Source: an uncultured bacterium (GTDB lineage Bacteria > Cyanobacteriota > Vampirovibrionia > Gastranaerophilales > Gastranaerophilaceae). From it: a DNA stretch of 48,887 nucleotides. The DNA lies in assembly GCA_946636615.1 (NCBI GenBank), contig CAMPBE010000007.1:1-48887 (forward strand), written 5' to 3'. Shown one piece after another: positions 1 through 30,438 of this stretch. Positions within the stretch are counted from its first letter, which is position 1, and each line of letters opens with the position of its first letter. The position numbers and the translations under genes were made by a program. The notes below the pieces were generated by a model, which saw only the letters and a list, made by a program, of their open reading frames with translations, did not search any database and was not told where the DNA came from.

Positions 1-188
1 AAATCTACCAACAACCCCGGCTCAAATTCAATATTTGTTACGGAAACCGTACTGCCTGCAACATATACATGTACTGCTGCATTTTGCAAAGAATGAGAAT
101 ATACGAGATGCTTTACTTGTTGAGTTATATCAACAATATCCGTATTTCCTTTTGTATTTACAGAAAATTTTCCATTAATTACCGTCAT
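1..188 (-). CDS. YjbQ/UPF0047 family protein, truncated by the window edge
   Basis: Only the first 62 codons are inside the window; the gene runs off the left edge. The visible part starts MTVINGKFSVNT and reaches the family's conserved stretch ending in NIEFEPGLLVD, which matches the YjbQ (UPF0047) beta-sandwich family. Members of this family have been linked to a weak thiamine-phosphate synthase activity, but their true role is unsettled. The ATG overlaps the TGA of the upstream amidohydrolase-like gene in an ATGA, so translation is probably coupled and the two products are likely made together. The catalytic His residues of the family would lie beyond the edge, so activity cannot be judged. 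Confidence 0.8.
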   Translation of the reverse strand, partial: MTVINGKFSVNTKGNTDIVDITQQVKHLVYSHSLQNAAVHVYVAGSTVSVTNIEFEPGLLVD

Positions 189-1492
189 AAGCTAAACCTT
201 ACATTTCCGTTTTTAATTAATTTTCTGCCCTTTGAATACACAGAATACGGAGTATCCATATGTAGCAATGCATTATAATCTTCGTCATCAGATAGTTTAA
301 ACACATTAAAATCAGCATCTTTGCCAACTTCAATAGAACCAATTGCGTTATCTAGCCTTAAAATTTTTGCAGGATATATCGTCAAATATTTTACCAATTC
401 TACAATATCTAGTAATTTATCCTTATTAACTTCAGACGCCAATTTCAATAAGCTAAAGCTCCTGTTCTTAGAAAAACTTTGAGTTGAAAATCCAAAATTA
501 CCTCTGAATTTTTCTAAAACCTCACTAAACTCAAGCTTTTTGTTACAAATTTCTTCACTATATTTTGGCTGATAAATATATTTTGCTTCTGTTTGAGAAA
601 GCTGAGAAATTTCCGAATTATCATAATTTGCATTCGCAACAAGAACTTTTTTAGTAAGTACTTTTAAATTATTCAAATATTGGACAGGCGACAATTCTCT
701 TGTATACGGTGTAATTTTTCGCATTCCCATATATTTGTGCAGCAAATCAACATCAGAAAAACCATGTTCTAACCATTCCATTTCATCTTTTGATTCTGCA
801 AAACGTGTCATAATAAGCATATTATGTTTTCTACAATATTTTGAAAATAATTCCCAAAGCTTTTTATGAACTCCTGAAATTGAATTGAGCATAATACCTA
901 TATGAGTATTTTCGCCCTTATGAAAAATAAAATCCTCAACTTTTGCTCTTAAAGCTTTAAAAGTCTTTTTGCTATGATCTTTGCTATCAGAAAAAACCTC
1001 AAAAAATAAATAATTTTTTATTGGCAATTTATTTACAATTTCAAAATATTTATATTCCTTTGAGACTTGAGCTATACAAGTTGTACCTGATTTTATAGAT
1101 TCTATAACACCATGTTTAAAAGATTCGGTTTTTTGGTCTCTGTCCAGAGCAAAATAATTACACAAAATTTCTGCCCATTTTCTTGAATAATTATCTTGAG
1201 ATACACCAGCAAAATTATATTTTAAACTCAACATCTTAAAAAATTTTTTTAATCTTCTCTTAAAATCATTAGGATTTTGTTCTAATATATCTGTATACTG
1301 ATATTGAGTCAAAAGATCTATAAATCCCGGAGTAATAACGGCATTACCGAGTTCTTTGACGTATTTTTCGTCAAAATTAACTTCGCTGTTTGGGATTATG
1401 TCAATGATTTTGCCTTCATCAACAACAATCGCCATATCCCTCAAAACTTCATCCGCAGATGTTAAAATCCATTTTGCTTTATAACATTTCAT
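185..1492 (-). CDS. Amidohydrolase-fold protein lacking its metal ligands (probable pseudoenzyme)
   Basis: The 435-residue protein keeps the shape of the chlorohydrolase/MTA-SAH deaminase group of amidohydrolases. It has an N-terminal beta-sandwich strand set (residues 1-55), the PGFIDL turn (55-60), a barrel, and the C-terminal AKILRLDNAIGSIEVGKDAD sandwich return. Every metal or catalytic position I can align is changed. The HxH after PGFIDL is LTQ (61-63), the His of the HxAE motif is Arg230, the His of the HCVH motif is Asn287 (the second is Tyr290), and the Asp of GTDS is Gln338. The frame is intact over full length, so it looks maintained rather than decayed. It is coupled by ATGA to the YjbQ gene downstream. 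A TATAAT lies six bases before the ATG with no ribosome-binding site. Its present role is unknown. Confidence 0.8.
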   Translation of the reverse strand: MKCYKAKWILTSADEVLRDMAIVVDEGKIIDIIPNSEVNFDEKYVKELGNAVITPGFIDLLTQYQYTDILEQNPNDFKRRLKKFFKMLSLKYNFAGVSQDNYSRKWAEILCNYFALDRDQKTESFKHGVIESIKSGTTCIAQVSKEYKYFEIVNKLPIKNYLFFEVFSDSKDHSKKTFKALRAKVEDFIFHKGENTHIGIMLNSISGVHKKLWELFSKYCRKHNMLIMTRFAESKDEMEWLEHGFSDVDLLHKYMGMRKITPYTRELSPVQYLNNLKVLTKKVLVANANYDNSEISQLSQTEAKYIYQPKYSEEICNKKLEFSEVLEKFRGNFGFSTQSFSKNRSFSLLKLASEVNKDKLLDIVELVKYLTIYPAKILRLDNAIGSIEVGKDADFNVFKLSDDEDYNALLHMDTPYSVYSKGRKLIKNGNVRFSL

Positions 1493-1535: not shown

Positions 1536-2819
1536 TTAGCCGTACATTTCATCCGCATAAAAAGCAAACTCTAAAGCTCCTATTATAATTGTATCACCGT
1601 CTTTAATACCTTTTTTATACAGTTCATCAAAAACGCCCATACCTTTTAATATGTTTTGAAATCTTATAACCTGTTCAGCATTTCTGTCACTTGTAACAGC
1701 AGCAATACGTTCAATTTTTCCACCCTGTACTATATAAGTTTCTTTATCAACCTTAAACACCTCAAAAGCACTATCATCATTGTTGTATGCGCCCAAATCT
1801 TCTTCAACAACGACAGATGTATCAGGTTTTGGAATTTCATCAACCTTAATTCCCATAAAACCTGTCAGTTTATCAAGATTTTCGCCTGTAACCGCAGAAA
1901 TTGCAAAAACATCATCAGTAACTTTTGAAAATTGATTAATTAACTCTGATTGTTTTTCATCGTCAATGGCATCAATTTTATTTAGCACAACAATCTGATA
2001 TAGCTTTGATAAGTTTTCTGAATACTTTTCTAATTCGGCATTAATTTTTTTGTAATTTTCAAAAGGATTTTCTTCTGTTGAATCAATCAAATGAACAAGG
2101 AAACGGCATCTTTCAACATGTCTTAAAAAATCATGTCCTAATCCAACACCTTCAGCCGCTCCCTCAATTAATCCTGGAATATCAGCAACTACATACCCAT
2201 CACCTGATTGTTTTTTCACAACACCCAGATTTGGAATAAGAGTTGTAAACGGATAATCAGCAATTTTAGGCTTTGCAGAACTTATACGACTGATTAAAGT
2301 TGATTTTCCGGCGTTCGGCATACCCAACAAACCGACATCCGCAATAAGTTTCAATTCCAAAAATAATTCTCTCTCAATAGGAGGCTCACCCGGTTCACAA
2401 AACTGCGGTGCTCTTTTTTGTGCAGTTGCAAACCTCGCATTGCCTCTACCGCCTCTGCCGCCTTTAGCAACAAGGACCGTTTGTTCATGAGCAGTCAAAT
2501 CTGCGATAATATTTCCGGTTTTGACATCTTTTACAACAGTACCGACAGGCACTTTTATAAATAAATCTTTTGCACATCTGCCGTGCATATTTTTAATTCC
2601 GCCATTTTCGCCGGCTTCTGCTTTAAACACTGATTTATGCTTAAAATCCATAAGGGTAGACATATTTTCATCTGCCACAAGATATACGTCACCGCCCCTG
2701 CCGCCGTCACCACCAGCAGGTCCGCCTTTATCAACATACTTTTCACGTCTCCAGGCAACCATACCGTTACCGCCACGACCTGAAACTACTCTAATTTTTG
2801 ATTTATCAATAAATTTCAT
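1536..2819 (-). CDS. obg: GTPase Obg/CgtA
   Basis: Essential ribosome-associated GTPase acting in large-subunit assembly and stress control. The 427 residues show the three expected parts. The Gly-rich Obg fold fills residues 1-158 (for example GGRGGRGNARF). The G domain has the P-loop GMPNAGKST (166-174), DIPG (213-216) and NKID (280-283). A C-terminal OCT domain occupies about 345-427. Length and order are normal. It is divergent from tsaD with only 36 bp between the starts. No clear ribosome-binding site precedes the ATG. It lies 43 bp upstream of the amidohydrolase-like gene, which appears to have its own promoter. Confidence 0.97.
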   Translation of the reverse strand: MKFIDKSKIRVVSGRGGNGMVAWRREKYVDKGGPAGGDGGRGGDVYLVADENMSTLMDFKHKSVFKAEAGENGGIKNMHGRCAKDLFIKVPVGTVVKDVKTGNIIADLTAHEQTVLVAKGGRGGRGNARFATAQKRAPQFCEPGEPPIERELFLELKLIADVGLLGMPNAGKSTLISRISSAKPKIADYPFTTLIPNLGVVKKQSGDGYVVADIPGLIEGAAEGVGLGHDFLRHVERCRFLVHLIDSTEENPFENYKKINAELEKYSENLSKLYQIVVLNKIDAIDDEKQSELINQFSKVTDDVFAISAVTGENLDKLTGFMGIKVDEIPKPDTSVVVEEDLGAYNNDDSAFEVFKVDKETYIVQGGKIERIAAVTSDRNAEQVIRFQNILKGMGVFDELYKKGIKDGDTIIIGALEFAFYADEMYG

Positions 2820-3912: not shown

Positions 3913-4869
3913 TTACAAAGCGACAGGTAATTTTGACAATATAAATTCGTTAATCTTTTTTTCAAGACGAATATTATGGTGGAAATTATTTTCTTTAATA
4001 AAATAACATGGACTTGTAACATTAATTTCAATAATTTTTTCATCAATAACATCAAGCCCTACCAAAGGTAAACCCAAGCTATTCATCTCTTTTGCTACAG
4101 GTAAAAACAATTTTTTTTCTCTTTCAGATAAATTTGCTTTTACAATATTGCTGTCGCAATGTTCATTAAATTTAAAATCATCATTAGACGGAAGCTTTTG
4201 AATACACCAATCTAAAACCTCATCACCTAAAAACAATACTCTTTTATCACCAAACCTTGCTTTTGGAATATATTTTTGCACCATAAGCTTTCTCTTTCCA
4301 TTATCGGTCATTGTGTTTATTATAACTGCAGTATTTCTGTCCCCTTTGGTCAATGTCATAACACCGGCTCCAAAGCAACCGTTTAGAGGTTTCAAGACAA
4401 TCTCATTATATTCATTTAAAAATTCCATAATGTCTTGTTTTGAAGATGTTACAATATTTTCAGGCATCAATTCTAAAAATTTCACGGCATGCAATTTCTC
4501 ATTAAAATTTCTAATAGAACGTGGATCATTTAGAATAACAGTATTACTACGATCAACAAAATCAAAAATGTATGTTGCATTTATATAATCATTATCAACA
4601 GGTGGATCTGGGCGGAACATTACAAGGTCAAAGTCGTTAATTTTACGTTGTTTGAATTCTTTATCATAAAATATATTATCATTTTGCTCAAACGTTTTGT
4701 AGCATACAGCACAAGGTACGCCTGAATTTAAGGACAGATTGTCAATCGTTGTTACATATACATCATTATTGGAACGCAAAAGCTCTCTAATCATCCAAAA
4801 ATTAGTAACTAAATCGTTAAATTCAAAATATTTTAACTCTAATCTATCAACAACAAATAATATATCCAT
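3913..4869 (-). CDS. gshB: Glutathione synthetase-like ATP-grasp ligase (GshB)
   Basis: Prokaryotic GshB joins gamma-glutamylcysteine and glycine using ATP. The 318 residues carry the family's landmarks: MFRPDPPVDNDYINATYIFD in the N-terminal domain, LNDPRSIRNFNEKL, the ATP-grasp loop KPLNGCFGAGV, KYIPKARFGDKRVLF, and EINVTSPC where GshB normally reads EINVTSPTG. Length matches the family. A good ribosome-binding site (GAGGGG) precedes the ATG, and a TATACAAT-like -10 lies just upstream. No gshA is in the window, so glutathione synthesis cannot be confirmed. A ligase acting on another thiol peptide remains possible. It faces tsaD tail to tail, one base apart. Confidence 0.88.
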   Translation of the reverse strand: MDILFVVDRLELKYFEFNDLVTNFWMIRELLRSNNDVYVTTIDNLSLNSGVPCAVCYKTFEQNDNIFYDKEFKQRKINDFDLVMFRPDPPVDNDYINATYIFDFVDRSNTVILNDPRSIRNFNEKLHAVKFLELMPENIVTSSKQDIMEFLNEYNEIVLKPLNGCFGAGVMTLTKGDRNTAVIINTMTDNGKRKLMVQKYIPKARFGDKRVLFLGDEVLDWCIQKLPSNDDFKFNEHCDSNIVKANLSEREKKLFLPVAKEMNSLGLPLVGLDVIDEKIIEINVTSPCYFIKENNFHHNIRLEKKINEFILSKLPVAL

Positions 4870-5043: not shown

Positions 5044-5928
5044 ATGTCAGTAAATGCAATTAATGCGGCAGACCCGCAACAAAAACAAGGCAGCCCAATT
5101 AACGCTGCAATCGGTACCGGTGTTGGCTTAGGTTTAGCAGGTGCAGCCGGTGGTTATTTCTTAGGCGGTCAACGTCCTGATTTAGAAAAAGTATTCTCAA
5201 TGCCTGCAGACAAATTTGAATCTGTTACAAAAGATTTAAAAGATGAAGAAAAAACAGCAGCAGACAAAATCGCAGCAGGTAGAAAAGAATTAGAAGATGC
5301 TGTAAAACCAAAAATAGATGAATTCAAATCAAAAACATCAGAAAGAGCTAGCAAAATTGCAGGTATTACACCAGAAAAAGCAGAATTAGTAACAAACGCA
5401 ACAAATGCTAAAAATGATTTAGATGCAATTAAAGTAAGCATTGACGGCAAAGATAAATCATTAAAAGATGTACGTGATGCAGTAAAAACTAAAAGAGCAG
5501 CAGTAAAAGCAGCTACAACAGAAGAAGCAAAGAAAACTGCAAAAGACGAATTGAAAAAAGCTCTTGATGAATATAAAGAATTTGCTAAAGATGAAAAAGC
5601 TTCAGCAGCAATTAAAAAATATGCAAATGCAGAAAGAGAATTGAATACGGCAAGAGTTACTAAATACCAAGCAGAAGTAGCGAAAGATGGTACTGCAGAG
5701 AAAGCATTAAATGAAGCAATTGCAAAAATTCGCAATGAATACAAAGAAGCATTCAACACAAAAATGAATGCATTGAAAGATAACAAAGAATACCAAGATG
5801 CATTCGGAAAAATCAAAAAGTTATTCCCGAAAGAAGGAAAAGGTAAAGCAGCATTGATTTACGGCGGTATTGCAGCAGCTGTAGGTCTAATTGCAGGCTA
5901 CATCTTGGGTAATAACAAACAAGCATAG
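5044..5928 (+). CDS. Unknown Lys/Ala-rich helical protein with hydrophobic Gly-rich ends
   Basis: I do not recognise a family. The 294 residues begin with a Gln/Pro-containing tail, then a Gly-zipper-like hydrophobic stretch at about 21-43 (GTGVGLGLAGAAGGYFLGG). A long, highly charged Ala/Lys/Glu/Asp-rich segment at about 48-265 is almost certainly helical or coiled-coil. A final hydrophobic segment near 270-288 contains AAAVGLIAGYILG. There is no classical signal peptide. The outline (hydrophobic, long helix, hydrophobic) fits a membrane-spanning or membrane-bridging protein. Codons are strongly biased to A-ending forms. It has a TATAAT, a good ribosome-binding site and a strong terminator, which together suggest a stand-alone, well-expressed gene. 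A structural or envelope role is inference only. Confidence 0.8.
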   Translation: MSVNAINAADPQQKQGSPINAAIGTGVGLGLAGAAGGYFLGGQRPDLEKVFSMPADKFESVTKDLKDEEKTAADKIAAGRKELEDAVKPKIDEFKSKTSERASKIAGITPEKAELVTNATNAKNDLDAIKVSIDGKDKSLKDVRDAVKTKRAAVKAATTEEAKKTAKDELKKALDEYKEFAKDEKASAAIKKYANAERELNTARVTKYQAEVAKDGTAEKALNEAIAKIRNEYKEAFNTKMNALKDNKEYQDAFGKIKKLFPKEGKGKAALIYGGIAAAVGLIAGYILGNNKQA

Positions 5929-28694: not shown

Positions 28695-29594
28695 TTACAT
28701 ATTACCATAAATTAAATACTTATTTTTTCTTTTTTCCGGATAACAATTCCATTTAATAAGCTCATTTTTTCTGAACCAAGTAAGCTGACGTTTGGCATAA
28801 TTTCTCGTATTTTGCTTTAATTTTTCAACAGCCTGATCAAAAGTCATCATACCATCTAAATAAAATATCATCTCCCGATATCCTATAGTTTCAGTAATAT
28901 TTGAAGCTCTACCATACTTATTCAACAAAAATTTTGTTTCATCAATAAGTCCATCGTTTATCATACAGTCAACCCTATCGTTGATTCTTTGGTATAAAAT
29001 TTCTCTTGGGAAATTCAACCCAATCCATTCAACATCGTATTCACAATCTTTAATACCCCTTGCCTCAGACAATTTCAAACCTAAAGATTTTACTATTTCT
29101 ATATATCTTATTAATTTTTTCTTATCATTTTTCTCCACAGAATTAGCAGCGTCAGCATCTAAATCCTGTAATATACTAAACAATTCTTCATACGATTTAT
29201 TACTAAGTTCTGATCTCAATTTCTTATCAGGCTTTACTGTTGGCATTTCATAATTCTCGAGCAACAGCCTAAAATACAATCCTGTTCCTCCAACAACAAT
29301 TGGCATCTTACCTCTCTCAAGAATTTTATCAATACATTTTTTTGCATCTTCAACATATAATCCTGCAGAATATTCAAAAGTTGGTTCGACAATATCAATC
29401 ATATAGTGAGGGATATCGGCCATCTCCTTTTCTGACGGCTTTGCAGTCCCAATATTCATATCTTTATACACTAATCGAGAATCTGCAGAAACTATTTCCC
29501 CGTCAATTTTCTTTGCTAAATCAATTGCATAAGCAGTTTTTCCGCTAGCAGTAGCTCCAACAACAGCTATAACTTTGTTTTTATTCTTCTTCAT
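28695..29594 (-). CDS. miaA: tRNA dimethylallyltransferase MiaA
   Basis: Adds the dimethylallyl group to A37 of tRNAs reading UNN codons. Motifs: P-loop GATASGKT (13-20), VSADSRLVYKDMNIGTAKP, GGTGLYFR and the late RQLTWFRK. At 299 residues the length is normal. The start chosen (MKKNKNKVIAVVG) overlaps the preceding membrane protein gene by 14 bp, so translation is probably coupled. Longer in-frame starts exist but would add a hydrophobic stretch foreign to the family. Together with TsaD, the window encodes two A37 tRNA modification enzymes, in separate units. Confidence 0.95.
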   Translation of the reverse strand: MKKNKNKVIAVVGATASGKTAYAIDLAKKIDGEIVSADSRLVYKDMNIGTAKPSEKEMADIPHYMIDIVEPTFEYSAGLYVEDAKKCIDKILERGKMPIVVGGTGLYFRLLLENYEMPTVKPDKKLRSELSNKSYEELFSILQDLDADAANSVEKNDKKKLIRYIEIVKSLGLKLSEARGIKDCEYDVEWIGLNFPREILYQRINDRVDCMINDGLIDETKFLLNKYGRASNITETIGYREMIFYLDGMMTFDQAVEKLKQNTRNYAKRQLTWFRKNELIKWNCYPEKRKNKYLIYGNM

Positions 29595-30438
29595 CTGAAA
29601 CATATTTTCTTTCGTAATATAAAAAGATAGCAATAACCATATAAACAAAGAAATAAAACATTAAAATGCTCATAAATAAATAAGCAAAAGGATTTATTAT
29701 TGAAAATGTATTAATAAAAAGAATAACAAAACCAACAAACCATAATGAAATATAAATACTTAATGATGAAATAAAATTTTTGAAAATCTTGCAAATAGAC
29801 GTCCCTAATGCTATAAGCGGATTATTTTTTTTATATAACATCTCAGGAATCCATAACATCAATAAAAAGGATACAACAAAAGTCACTAACACAAAAAGCA
29901 AAGACCACTTTCCAAAATAAGCAATCATTTCAGGAGTCATCTTGTCTAACAATATAGCCATACTTGCACTATTTGAGGCAGCTGCACTTAATGATATCTC
30001 TTGTAACTGCTGCATAGATGACGGATCTAAAGCTCCGATTAAGCGTCCACCAATAAACCAAACTAATTGAGCTGCTATCAATTGAATAACAAAAATATAA
30101 ATACAACACGCACCTAAAAAAGATAAAAAATATTTACCTACGCCATCTAACAAAGATTTGAACAAATTCAAAGTTGCCTTTGCTCTATCCTTATCTAATA
30201 CAAATACTTTATGTGATAATTTTACAGCATCCTTAACCATGGAAAACCAACCTGCACAAAAAGCACAAATCATACATATAACAGTCAAAGATGCAACTAA
30301 AAATTTTAAAGTTGTATCTAAATGATATTTTGAATACATTGAATACAAATCTATTATTTTTATAAATAATATTAATGGAATAGCTAATATTATACTGTTA
30401 TTAGTAATCTTAAAAGAATCAACAAATATATTCTTCAT
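29581..30438 (-). CDS. Unknown polytopic membrane protein
   Basis: The 285 residues contain about six hydrophobic helices, near 15-32, 46-68, 103-130, 180-200, 228-248 and 250-275. A loop rich in Ser/Ala lies at about 135-165, and the C terminus is short and charged (RKYVSDEEE). I do not recognise the family. It sits between the HgdB-like gene (seven-base gap) and miaA (overlap) inside a long operon, and has an internal ribosome-binding site (GAGG). No transporter or enzyme motif is visible. Confidence 0.8.
   Translation of the reverse strand: MKNIFVDSFKITNNSIILAIPLILFIKIIDLYSMYSKYHLDTTLKFLVASLTVICMICAFCAGWFSMVKDAVKLSHKVFVLDKDRAKATLNLFKSLLDGVGKYFLSFLGACCIYIFVIQLIAAQLVWFIGGRLIGALDPSSMQQLQEISLSAAASNSASMAILLDKMTPEMIAYFGKWSLLFVLVTFVVSFLLMLWIPEMLYKKNNPLIALGTSICKIFKNFISSLSIYISLWFVGFVILFINTFSIINPFAYLFMSILMFYFFVYMVIAIFLYYERKYVSDEEE

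Follow-up and report, generated by a model that had tools for sequence, protein, structure and literature searches.

The window analysed here, a whole stretch of 48,887 nucleotides from the genome of an uncultured gut member of the Gastranaerophilaceae, which are relatives of the cyanobacteria, carries at one end a gene for a full-length amidohydrolase-like protein in which all five His/Asp metal-site positions are changed. The replacements are fixed among orthologues, the frame is under purifying selection, and the altered site coincides with the absence of menaquinone (futalosine) pathway genes. The protein probably descends from a metal-dependent enzyme that once helped to make vitamin K2 (menaquinone), the likeliest candidate being the aminofutalosine deaminase of the futalosine route, and has probably taken on a different job. 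Our preferred reading, held with moderate confidence, is that of a retired futalosine-pathway deaminase whose metal site was dismantled stepwise, whose pocket was refixed in a metal-free form, and which is now maintained as a pseudo-deaminase. Within this reading, an origin in a deaminase together with the loss of metal chemistry appears highly probable, and a ligand-binding role as such is put forward tentatively, at slightly less than an even chance.

The gene occupies positions 185-1492 of the minus strand, with its TGA stop at 187-185, and encodes 435 residues. An earlier sequence-only reading of this DNA had described an undamaged 435-codon frame, with the strand left out, and intact landmarks of the fold. 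Both claims held, PGFIDL being found at residues 55-60 and GSIEVGKDAD at residues 385-394 of the protein. Membership in the amidohydrolase superfamily is indicated by a match to Amidohydro_1 (PF01979) above the gathering score (E 2.7e-26; 93 bits for a cut-off of 25) and by structural matches over the full length (388-392 residues). An AlphaFold2 model built from 57 sequences (pLDDT 93.9, pTM 0.93) confidently predicts an intact fold, for which Foldseek ranked an adenosine deaminase homologue (4f0r) first and the H. pylori aminofutalosine deaminase (7lkk) third. A second structural comparison matched the predicted fold to aminofutalosine deaminase at a Z score of 40; its matches were Nis_0429 (3v7p; Z 40.1, rmsd 3.2, 392 residues), 7lkk (Z 40.0, rmsd 2.9, 388 residues), and the adenosine deaminase 4gbd (Z 40.0, rmsd 2.6, 383 residues). 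Since these three are tied, the fold appears whole but cannot by itself identify the ancestral substrate. In NCBIfam, the protein matches "aminofutalosine deaminase family hydrolase" (PRK08418) best, at 98.2 bits, below the cut-off of 320 bits that an aminofutalosine deaminase is expected to exceed. The intact order-level relatives L029 and L114 have the same best family, likewise under the cut-off, and the six intact relatives scanned scored 148-177 bits, far under 320; in the class-level intact relatives L121, L124, and L128, PRK09045 scored above PRK08418. PRK08418 scores below the cut-off and three relatives preferring PRK09045 speak against a firm assignment of the ancestral substrate. 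Ser145, mutated in the Nis_0429 entry 4m51, was considered as a substrate marker and discarded, the aligned position 168 of the window protein being Gly, Ala, or Ser in intact relatives.

At the metal site, alignment with relatives revealed the changes His61 to Leu, His63 to Gln, His230 to Arg, His287 to Asn, and Asp338 to Gln. On the minus strand, codons 61-63 (1304..1312) thus read L-T-Q where ligand-keeping relatives have H-x-H; codon 230 (803..805) encodes Arg in place of a metal-ligand His, codon 287 (632..634) Asn in place of His, and codon 338 (479..481) Gln in place of Asp. These substitutions had been named in the sequence-only reading, to which two observations can be added. The acid of the HxxE motif, Glu233 (codon 233, 794..796), is unchanged and is present in 62/62 clade-A proteins (the clade of the window protein) and in 122/122 of the homologues sampled across the order. 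Changes also affect the conserved CPRSN motif (C308Q and S311Y), codons 308-311 (560..571) giving Q-P-K-Y where relatives have C-P-R-S, that is, CPRS(N) turned into QPKY(S). With the aminofutalosine deaminase 7lkj, phmmer aligned "dlltqyqyt" on "nahthfefs" (a segment scoring just 5.2 bits alone) and "mtrfaes" on "sthfles" (within a stretch of 33.5 bits). In the cytosine-deaminase-like subtype, we take H-x-H, His230, and Asp338 to be metal ligands and His287 and Glu233 to be catalytic. Out of the residues expected of a metal-dependent amidohydrolase or deaminase (HxH, the His of HxxE, the later His and Asp), the window protein has none, and Glu233 alone remains. The missing ligands suggest a protein that would bind no catalytic metal and would no longer deaminate. 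The replacements go beyond chance, because positions 63, 230, 287, and 338 are invariant in 62/62 orthologues. Alignment or sequencing error was rejected as an explanation, since all 62 clade-A rows carry identical residues at 63, 230, 233, 287, and 338 (Gln, Arg, Glu, Asn, and Gln); position 61 is Leu, Phe, or Met.

Homologue searches matched 49 of 116 relatives, yielded 80 contig loci, and retrieved homologues from 122 of 383 order-level genomes (E <= 1e-10). An alignment of the 108 distinct proteins encoded by the first 130 loci comprised 62 members of clade A (window included), 22 of clade B, 20 ligand-keepers, two proteins of family f7, and two others. At the replaced columns, HxH was found in 19 of the 20 ligand-keepers (one row is truncated), and His230, His287, and Asp338 in 20/20 each. 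A census of the 122 order homologues at positions 61, 63, 230, 287, and 338 gave 62 with [L/F/M]-Q-R-N-Q, 44 with H-H-R-Y-N, three with F-Q-R-N-E, one with H-H-C-H-D, one with H-H-S-H-D, and 11 with the intact H-H-H-H-D, so that the ligands are kept in 11 and altered in 111. Order-level ligand-keepers are 32-38% identical to the window protein, and nine further ligand-keeping loci were found at class level, eight of them long enough to show HxH. In a tree of 55 rows, clades A, B, and f7 were each monophyletic with 100% bootstrap, and f7, a sister family (two genomes) in which His230 alone is lost (Cys or Ser), branched as sister to A, B, and two odd rows (98/96). Clade B (L090-L110), from the same bacterial family, has a second type of altered site, with H-x-H kept and Arg, Tyr, and Asn at the other ligand positions. 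Another homologue, L113, has D/N/E/N/R at the metal-site positions, Glu233 being kept; it stands on a long branch of unsure placement and comes from G062, a 63% complete genome that belongs to the 116-relative sample but not to the 383-genome sample and is hence outside the 122. The sequence-only reading had named orthologues with canonical ligands as grounds for abandoning its pseudoenzyme interpretation. Such homologues do exist (11 of the 122 in the order and nine class-level loci), but they belong to other lineages; as the genomes of these lineages have menaquinone genes (all 11 in the order and the eight tested at class level), the interpretation is strengthened.

Aminofutalosine deaminase is an enzyme of the futalosine pathway in H. 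pylori, according to the accessible part of PMC13280913. Across the 383 order genomes, MqnA/D (PF02621) was present in 13, namely ten of the 11 genomes with an intact homologue plus G070, G076, and G084, and in 0 of the 111 with an altered homologue. The eleventh intact genome, G090 (80% complete), is without an MqnA/D match, but has MqnC above the cut-off and a strong UbiA. Within a set of 26 genomes chosen across the tree, MqnA/D was detected in 15/15 intact and 0/10 altered genomes and was absent from G001, which is without the gene. MqnE (TIGR03700) was strong (E <= 1e-60) in the same 15 intact genomes, being above the cut-off in 12, and weak in the 10 altered ones (E >= 1e-12, at most 47 bits for a cut-off of 434.55), as well as in G001. 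Of 27 genomes, 14 had MqnC (TIGR03699) above the cut-off, each of them with a ligand-keeping homologue, and the altered genomes matched it weakly. The genome of the window (G000, 98% complete) gave no MqnA/D match and MqnE and MqnC scores of 45 bits or less, far below the cut-offs; the pathway expected of a genome with an aminofutalosine deaminase (MqnA/D, MqnE, and MqnC) was thus not found there, nor were its genes found in the two genomes of f7. Because pathway loss and ligand loss are tied by essentially one or a few events on the tree, these counts are not independent.

Positional evidence comes from family f2, in which two genomes (G070 and G076) have a ligand-keeping amidohydrolase head to tail with an MqnA/D match (L286:2935-4912 and L287:631-2572). 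The pair represents a candidate aminofutalosine deaminase operon, and its arrangement ties such deaminases to the pathway by position. The branch that holds the f2 homologues is long (2.5 changes per site) and their orthology is uncertain; of the two MqnA/D neighbours, the one scanned (in G070) had no NCBIfam match at 1e-10. For the other ligand-keepers with typed neighbours, no adjacent mqn gene was found, and the neighbouring genes vary. In both typed f3 loci, the ligand-keeper is overlapped by a KDO-8-phosphate synthase gene, the cluster of which occurs in 4 of 20 ligand-keeper loci. In G084, MqnA/D is present and the homologue was not found even by profile search. The strong form of UbiA (E <= 1e-47) was detected in 15 of 16 futalosine-positive genomes (missing from G071) and in none of 11 others, which match more weakly. 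All 11 examined genomes without futalosine genes have a UbiA counterpart, the typing being that of the G000 copy only, a MenA-like prenyltransferase of the UbiA family (L272:262-1146, G000:C20; 80.6 bits for a cut-off of 264). Organisms of this kind might make a quinone from a precursor that they import. Gut Gastranaerophilales are described as obligate fermenters without respiration genes in the accessible part of PMC4040986. Cytochrome bd was dismissed as a respiration marker: it occurs in 5 of 27 genomes, none of them in the order, and therefore cannot separate groups within it.

Selection was assessed in 10 non-overlapping clade-A pairs (dS 0.13-0.91), for which a simple counting method gave dN/dS values of 0.027-0.091, compared with 0.009-0.040 for an obg control (nine pairs). 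This indicates strong constraint on the gene, although weaker than on obg in most pairs. Across the 62 orthologues, 124 of the 435 positions are invariant, including Q63, R230, E233, N287, and Q338, and no internal stop was found in any of these 62 members. Ligand-keepers conserve 51 positions. Clade A retains 21 of these and has switched and refixed 14 (N59D, H63Q, W105K, L109I, S201M, P202L, H230R, N282K, H287N, C308Q, S311Y, L315I, G336S, and D338Q), the other 16 falling in neither class; a pocket would not become refixed through relaxation alone. That the gene is a decaying, functionless relic is hardly credible on these figures, even though its mean distance (0.278 vs 0.178 for obg) shows faster evolution and it has left no tblastn trace at 1e-3 in 12/12 gene-less genus-mates; neutral decay is ruled out by the dN/dS values and the fixed new residues. 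The idea of a maintained pseudoenzyme, already raised in the sequence-only reading, is instead supported by the fixation of positions 63, 230, 287, and 338 in 62/62 orthologues, by purifying selection on a frame whose catalytic residues are lost, and by the predicted fold, the loss of deaminase chemistry being strongly suggested by the replaced residues. The protein might still be an enzyme, in which Glu233, Arg230, and the new amides would carry out a different, metal-independent reaction on a related substrate, as would fit the retention of Glu233 in 122/122 order homologues and a pocket that is refixed and not relaxed. To our knowledge, however, known members of this deaminase branch all require a metal, and the different replacement sets found in clade A, clade B, the L023 group, and L113 fit several binding variants better than one chemistry; we regard such an enzyme as rather improbable. 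Activity at a displaced site, with the metal held by other residues, could draw on further invariant residues of clade A (for example, H191, H209, C139, C220, D169, and E233), but among the usual motif positions Glu233 alone keeps a potential metal-binding acid, and this possibility seems very slight.

The genomic neighbourhood bears on a further alternative, that of a subunit or scaffold for another enzyme. The TGA of the gene (187-185) overlaps the ATG of yjbQ (188-186) by 4 nt (ATGA). In the window, yjbQ (UPF0047; 1..188, minus strand) is truncated by the contig end to its 5' part, and the resulting 63-residue fragment scores 22.1 bits, under the cut-off of 27; the complete copy in the relative L038 passes the family cut-offs. 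The coupling to a YjbQ gene reported by the sequence-only reading proved widespread. Among 60 loci examined, both genes were found in 54, and the overlap was exactly 4 nt in 52 of these. In clade A, yjbQ is the next gene downstream in 52/62 loci, some of the others being truncated at contig ends. Directly upstream, after a gap of 43 nt, is the syntenic obg GTPase gene (1536..2819, minus strand; ObgE, 551.6 bits for a cut-off of 406), which directly precedes the gene in 33 clade-A loci and does so with one intervening gene in 14. YjbQ is the obvious candidate for a partner, and there is a precedent in the Pseudomonas pseudo-dihydroorotase, an inactive dihydroorotase-like chain needed for the activity of its partner (PMC7053772, accessible part). 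The partnership, at which the sequence-only reading had hinted, is weakened by the distribution of the two genes, whose presence is not tied as would be expected of obligate partners. YjbQ occurs in 322 of 383 order genomes, far more than have the gene, and persists without it in 12/12 gene-less genus-mates examined, where obg and yjbQ are adjacent (in one case with the protein p309 between them). Conversely, six of the 62 clade-A genomes (G066, G122, G131, G143, G207, and G218) are without a YjbQ match, and the pair drawn from two of them (L081/L082, from G218 and G131) has a dN/dS of 0.027. Neither yjbQ nor obg was found in any of the 22 clade-B loci, and a scaffold role alone would not demand refixed pocket residues. 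We consider such a role unlikely. The gene is probably co-translated with YjbQ, yet independent of it.

Within the genus, the gene was found in 16 of 33 genomes and is missing from 17 (some of these being under 90% complete), so that its role is dispensable. Gene and obg distances are correlated over 44 loci (Mantel r 0.738, with 0 of 2000 permutations as high). In a tree of obg and yjbQ (12 rows with the gene, 11 without, and six from other genera; the window was left out, its yjbQ being truncated), gene-less genomes fall in two groups inside the gene-bearing ones. The gene was probably lost in two events, but the deciding forks have only 88-90% bootstrap and the well-supported branches force one change only. 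Vertical descent with losses is supported, as it fits the Mantel correlation and this tree better than horizontal transfer of the clade-A gene does. The above-mentioned p309, a 309-residue protein without Pfam or NCBIfam match (L038:3014-3943; L192), separates obg from the gene in some loci, in addition to its position between obg and yjbQ in one gene-less genome.

Elsewhere in the window, positions 3913-4869 (minus strand) encode a glutathione-synthase-like ATP-grasp protein scoring 263.5 bits, slightly below its cut-off (272). Positions 5044-5928 (plus strand) encode a protein of 294 residues, rich in Ala, Lys, and Glu, that has hydrophobic segments close to either end and matched no Pfam family at 1e-5. 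At 28695-30438 (minus strand), 68 nt are shared by two listed frames: one that resembles a tRNA isopentenyltransferase and has a TTG start (28695-29648, minus strand), its true start being probably further in, and one of 285 residues without Pfam match.

Under the preferred reading of a retired futalosine-pathway deaminase, the menaquinone genes would have been lost on the branch leading to the family of clades A and B and its sister f7, which would have made the deaminase redundant. His230 would have gone first (Cys or Ser in f7, Arg in the window family), a change at His287 and Asp338 would have come next (Tyr/Asn in clade B, Asn/Gln in clade A), and the HxH pair would finally have been lost in clade A (Leu or Phe/Gln); we infer this order from a reading of the 55-row tree. 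Arg230 may now stand at the former place of the metal, presenting a fixed positive charge to the retained Glu233, and with Gln63, Asn287, Gln308, Tyr311, and Gln338 it could form a new polar, metal-free pocket, as judged from the alignment. The scaffold would have been retained to bind either a partner or a small molecule, which might be a nucleoside, and not to catalyse hydrolysis. A bolder and, in our opinion, unlikely version is that the arginine replaces the metal ion in a fixed pocket and that the protein has become an undescribed type of metal-independent enzyme or nucleoside sensor.

Bacterial pseudoenzymes are seldom caught with ancestor-like, intermediate, and end states side by side. 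In this one order, intact proteins occur in genomes that have the pathway; the sister family, in which pathway genes were not found, has lost a single ligand; and the altered sites comprise two that are well sampled (clades A and B) and a small third group. Glu233 is retained throughout. As these states co-exist, the fate of an enzyme after the loss of its pathway is directly testable with a handful of purified proteins. The case is also a warning to annotators, the protein passing the amidohydrolase gathering score without canonical metal ligands. Neither the window protein itself nor a futalosine-pathway pseudo-deaminase with preserved intermediates was found in the open literature, which most subscription journals lie outside, and the accessible part of PMC6349859 mentions neither futalosine nor Gastranaerophilales.

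Among solved structures, the best sequence matches to the window protein are HpAFLDA (7lkj/7lkk) and Nis_0429 (3v7p), which share its fold over nearly the full length (Z 40.0-40.1, rmsd 2.9-3.2 Å, 388-392 residues). Identity to these enzymes is 19-20%, and the window protein differs from them by its replaced His/Asp metal-site positions, Glu233 being kept, and by a genome without MqnA/D. The order- and class-level ligand-keepers belong to the same family by the tree and share Glu233 and fold residues with the window protein, but they keep H-x-H, His230, His287, and Asp338, and their genomes have futalosine-pathway genes (G094 was outside this test). Two other systems are more distant. The pDHO of Pseudomonas aeruginosa is an amidohydrolase-superfamily member, and the CRMP/dihydropyrimidinase-related proteins have an amidohydrolase fold without a metal site. 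In contrast to the window protein, the CRMPs are eukaryotic proteins of a different subfamily with a cytoskeletal role. As part of aspartate transcarbamoylase, pDHO is likewise without activity of its own and kept for another purpose, according to the accessible part of PMC7053772, but its ancestor was a dihydroorotase and its partner is known. Inactive members of the amidohydrolase superfamily were thus already known, and the window protein would add to them a pseudo-deaminase of probable futalosine-pathway origin.
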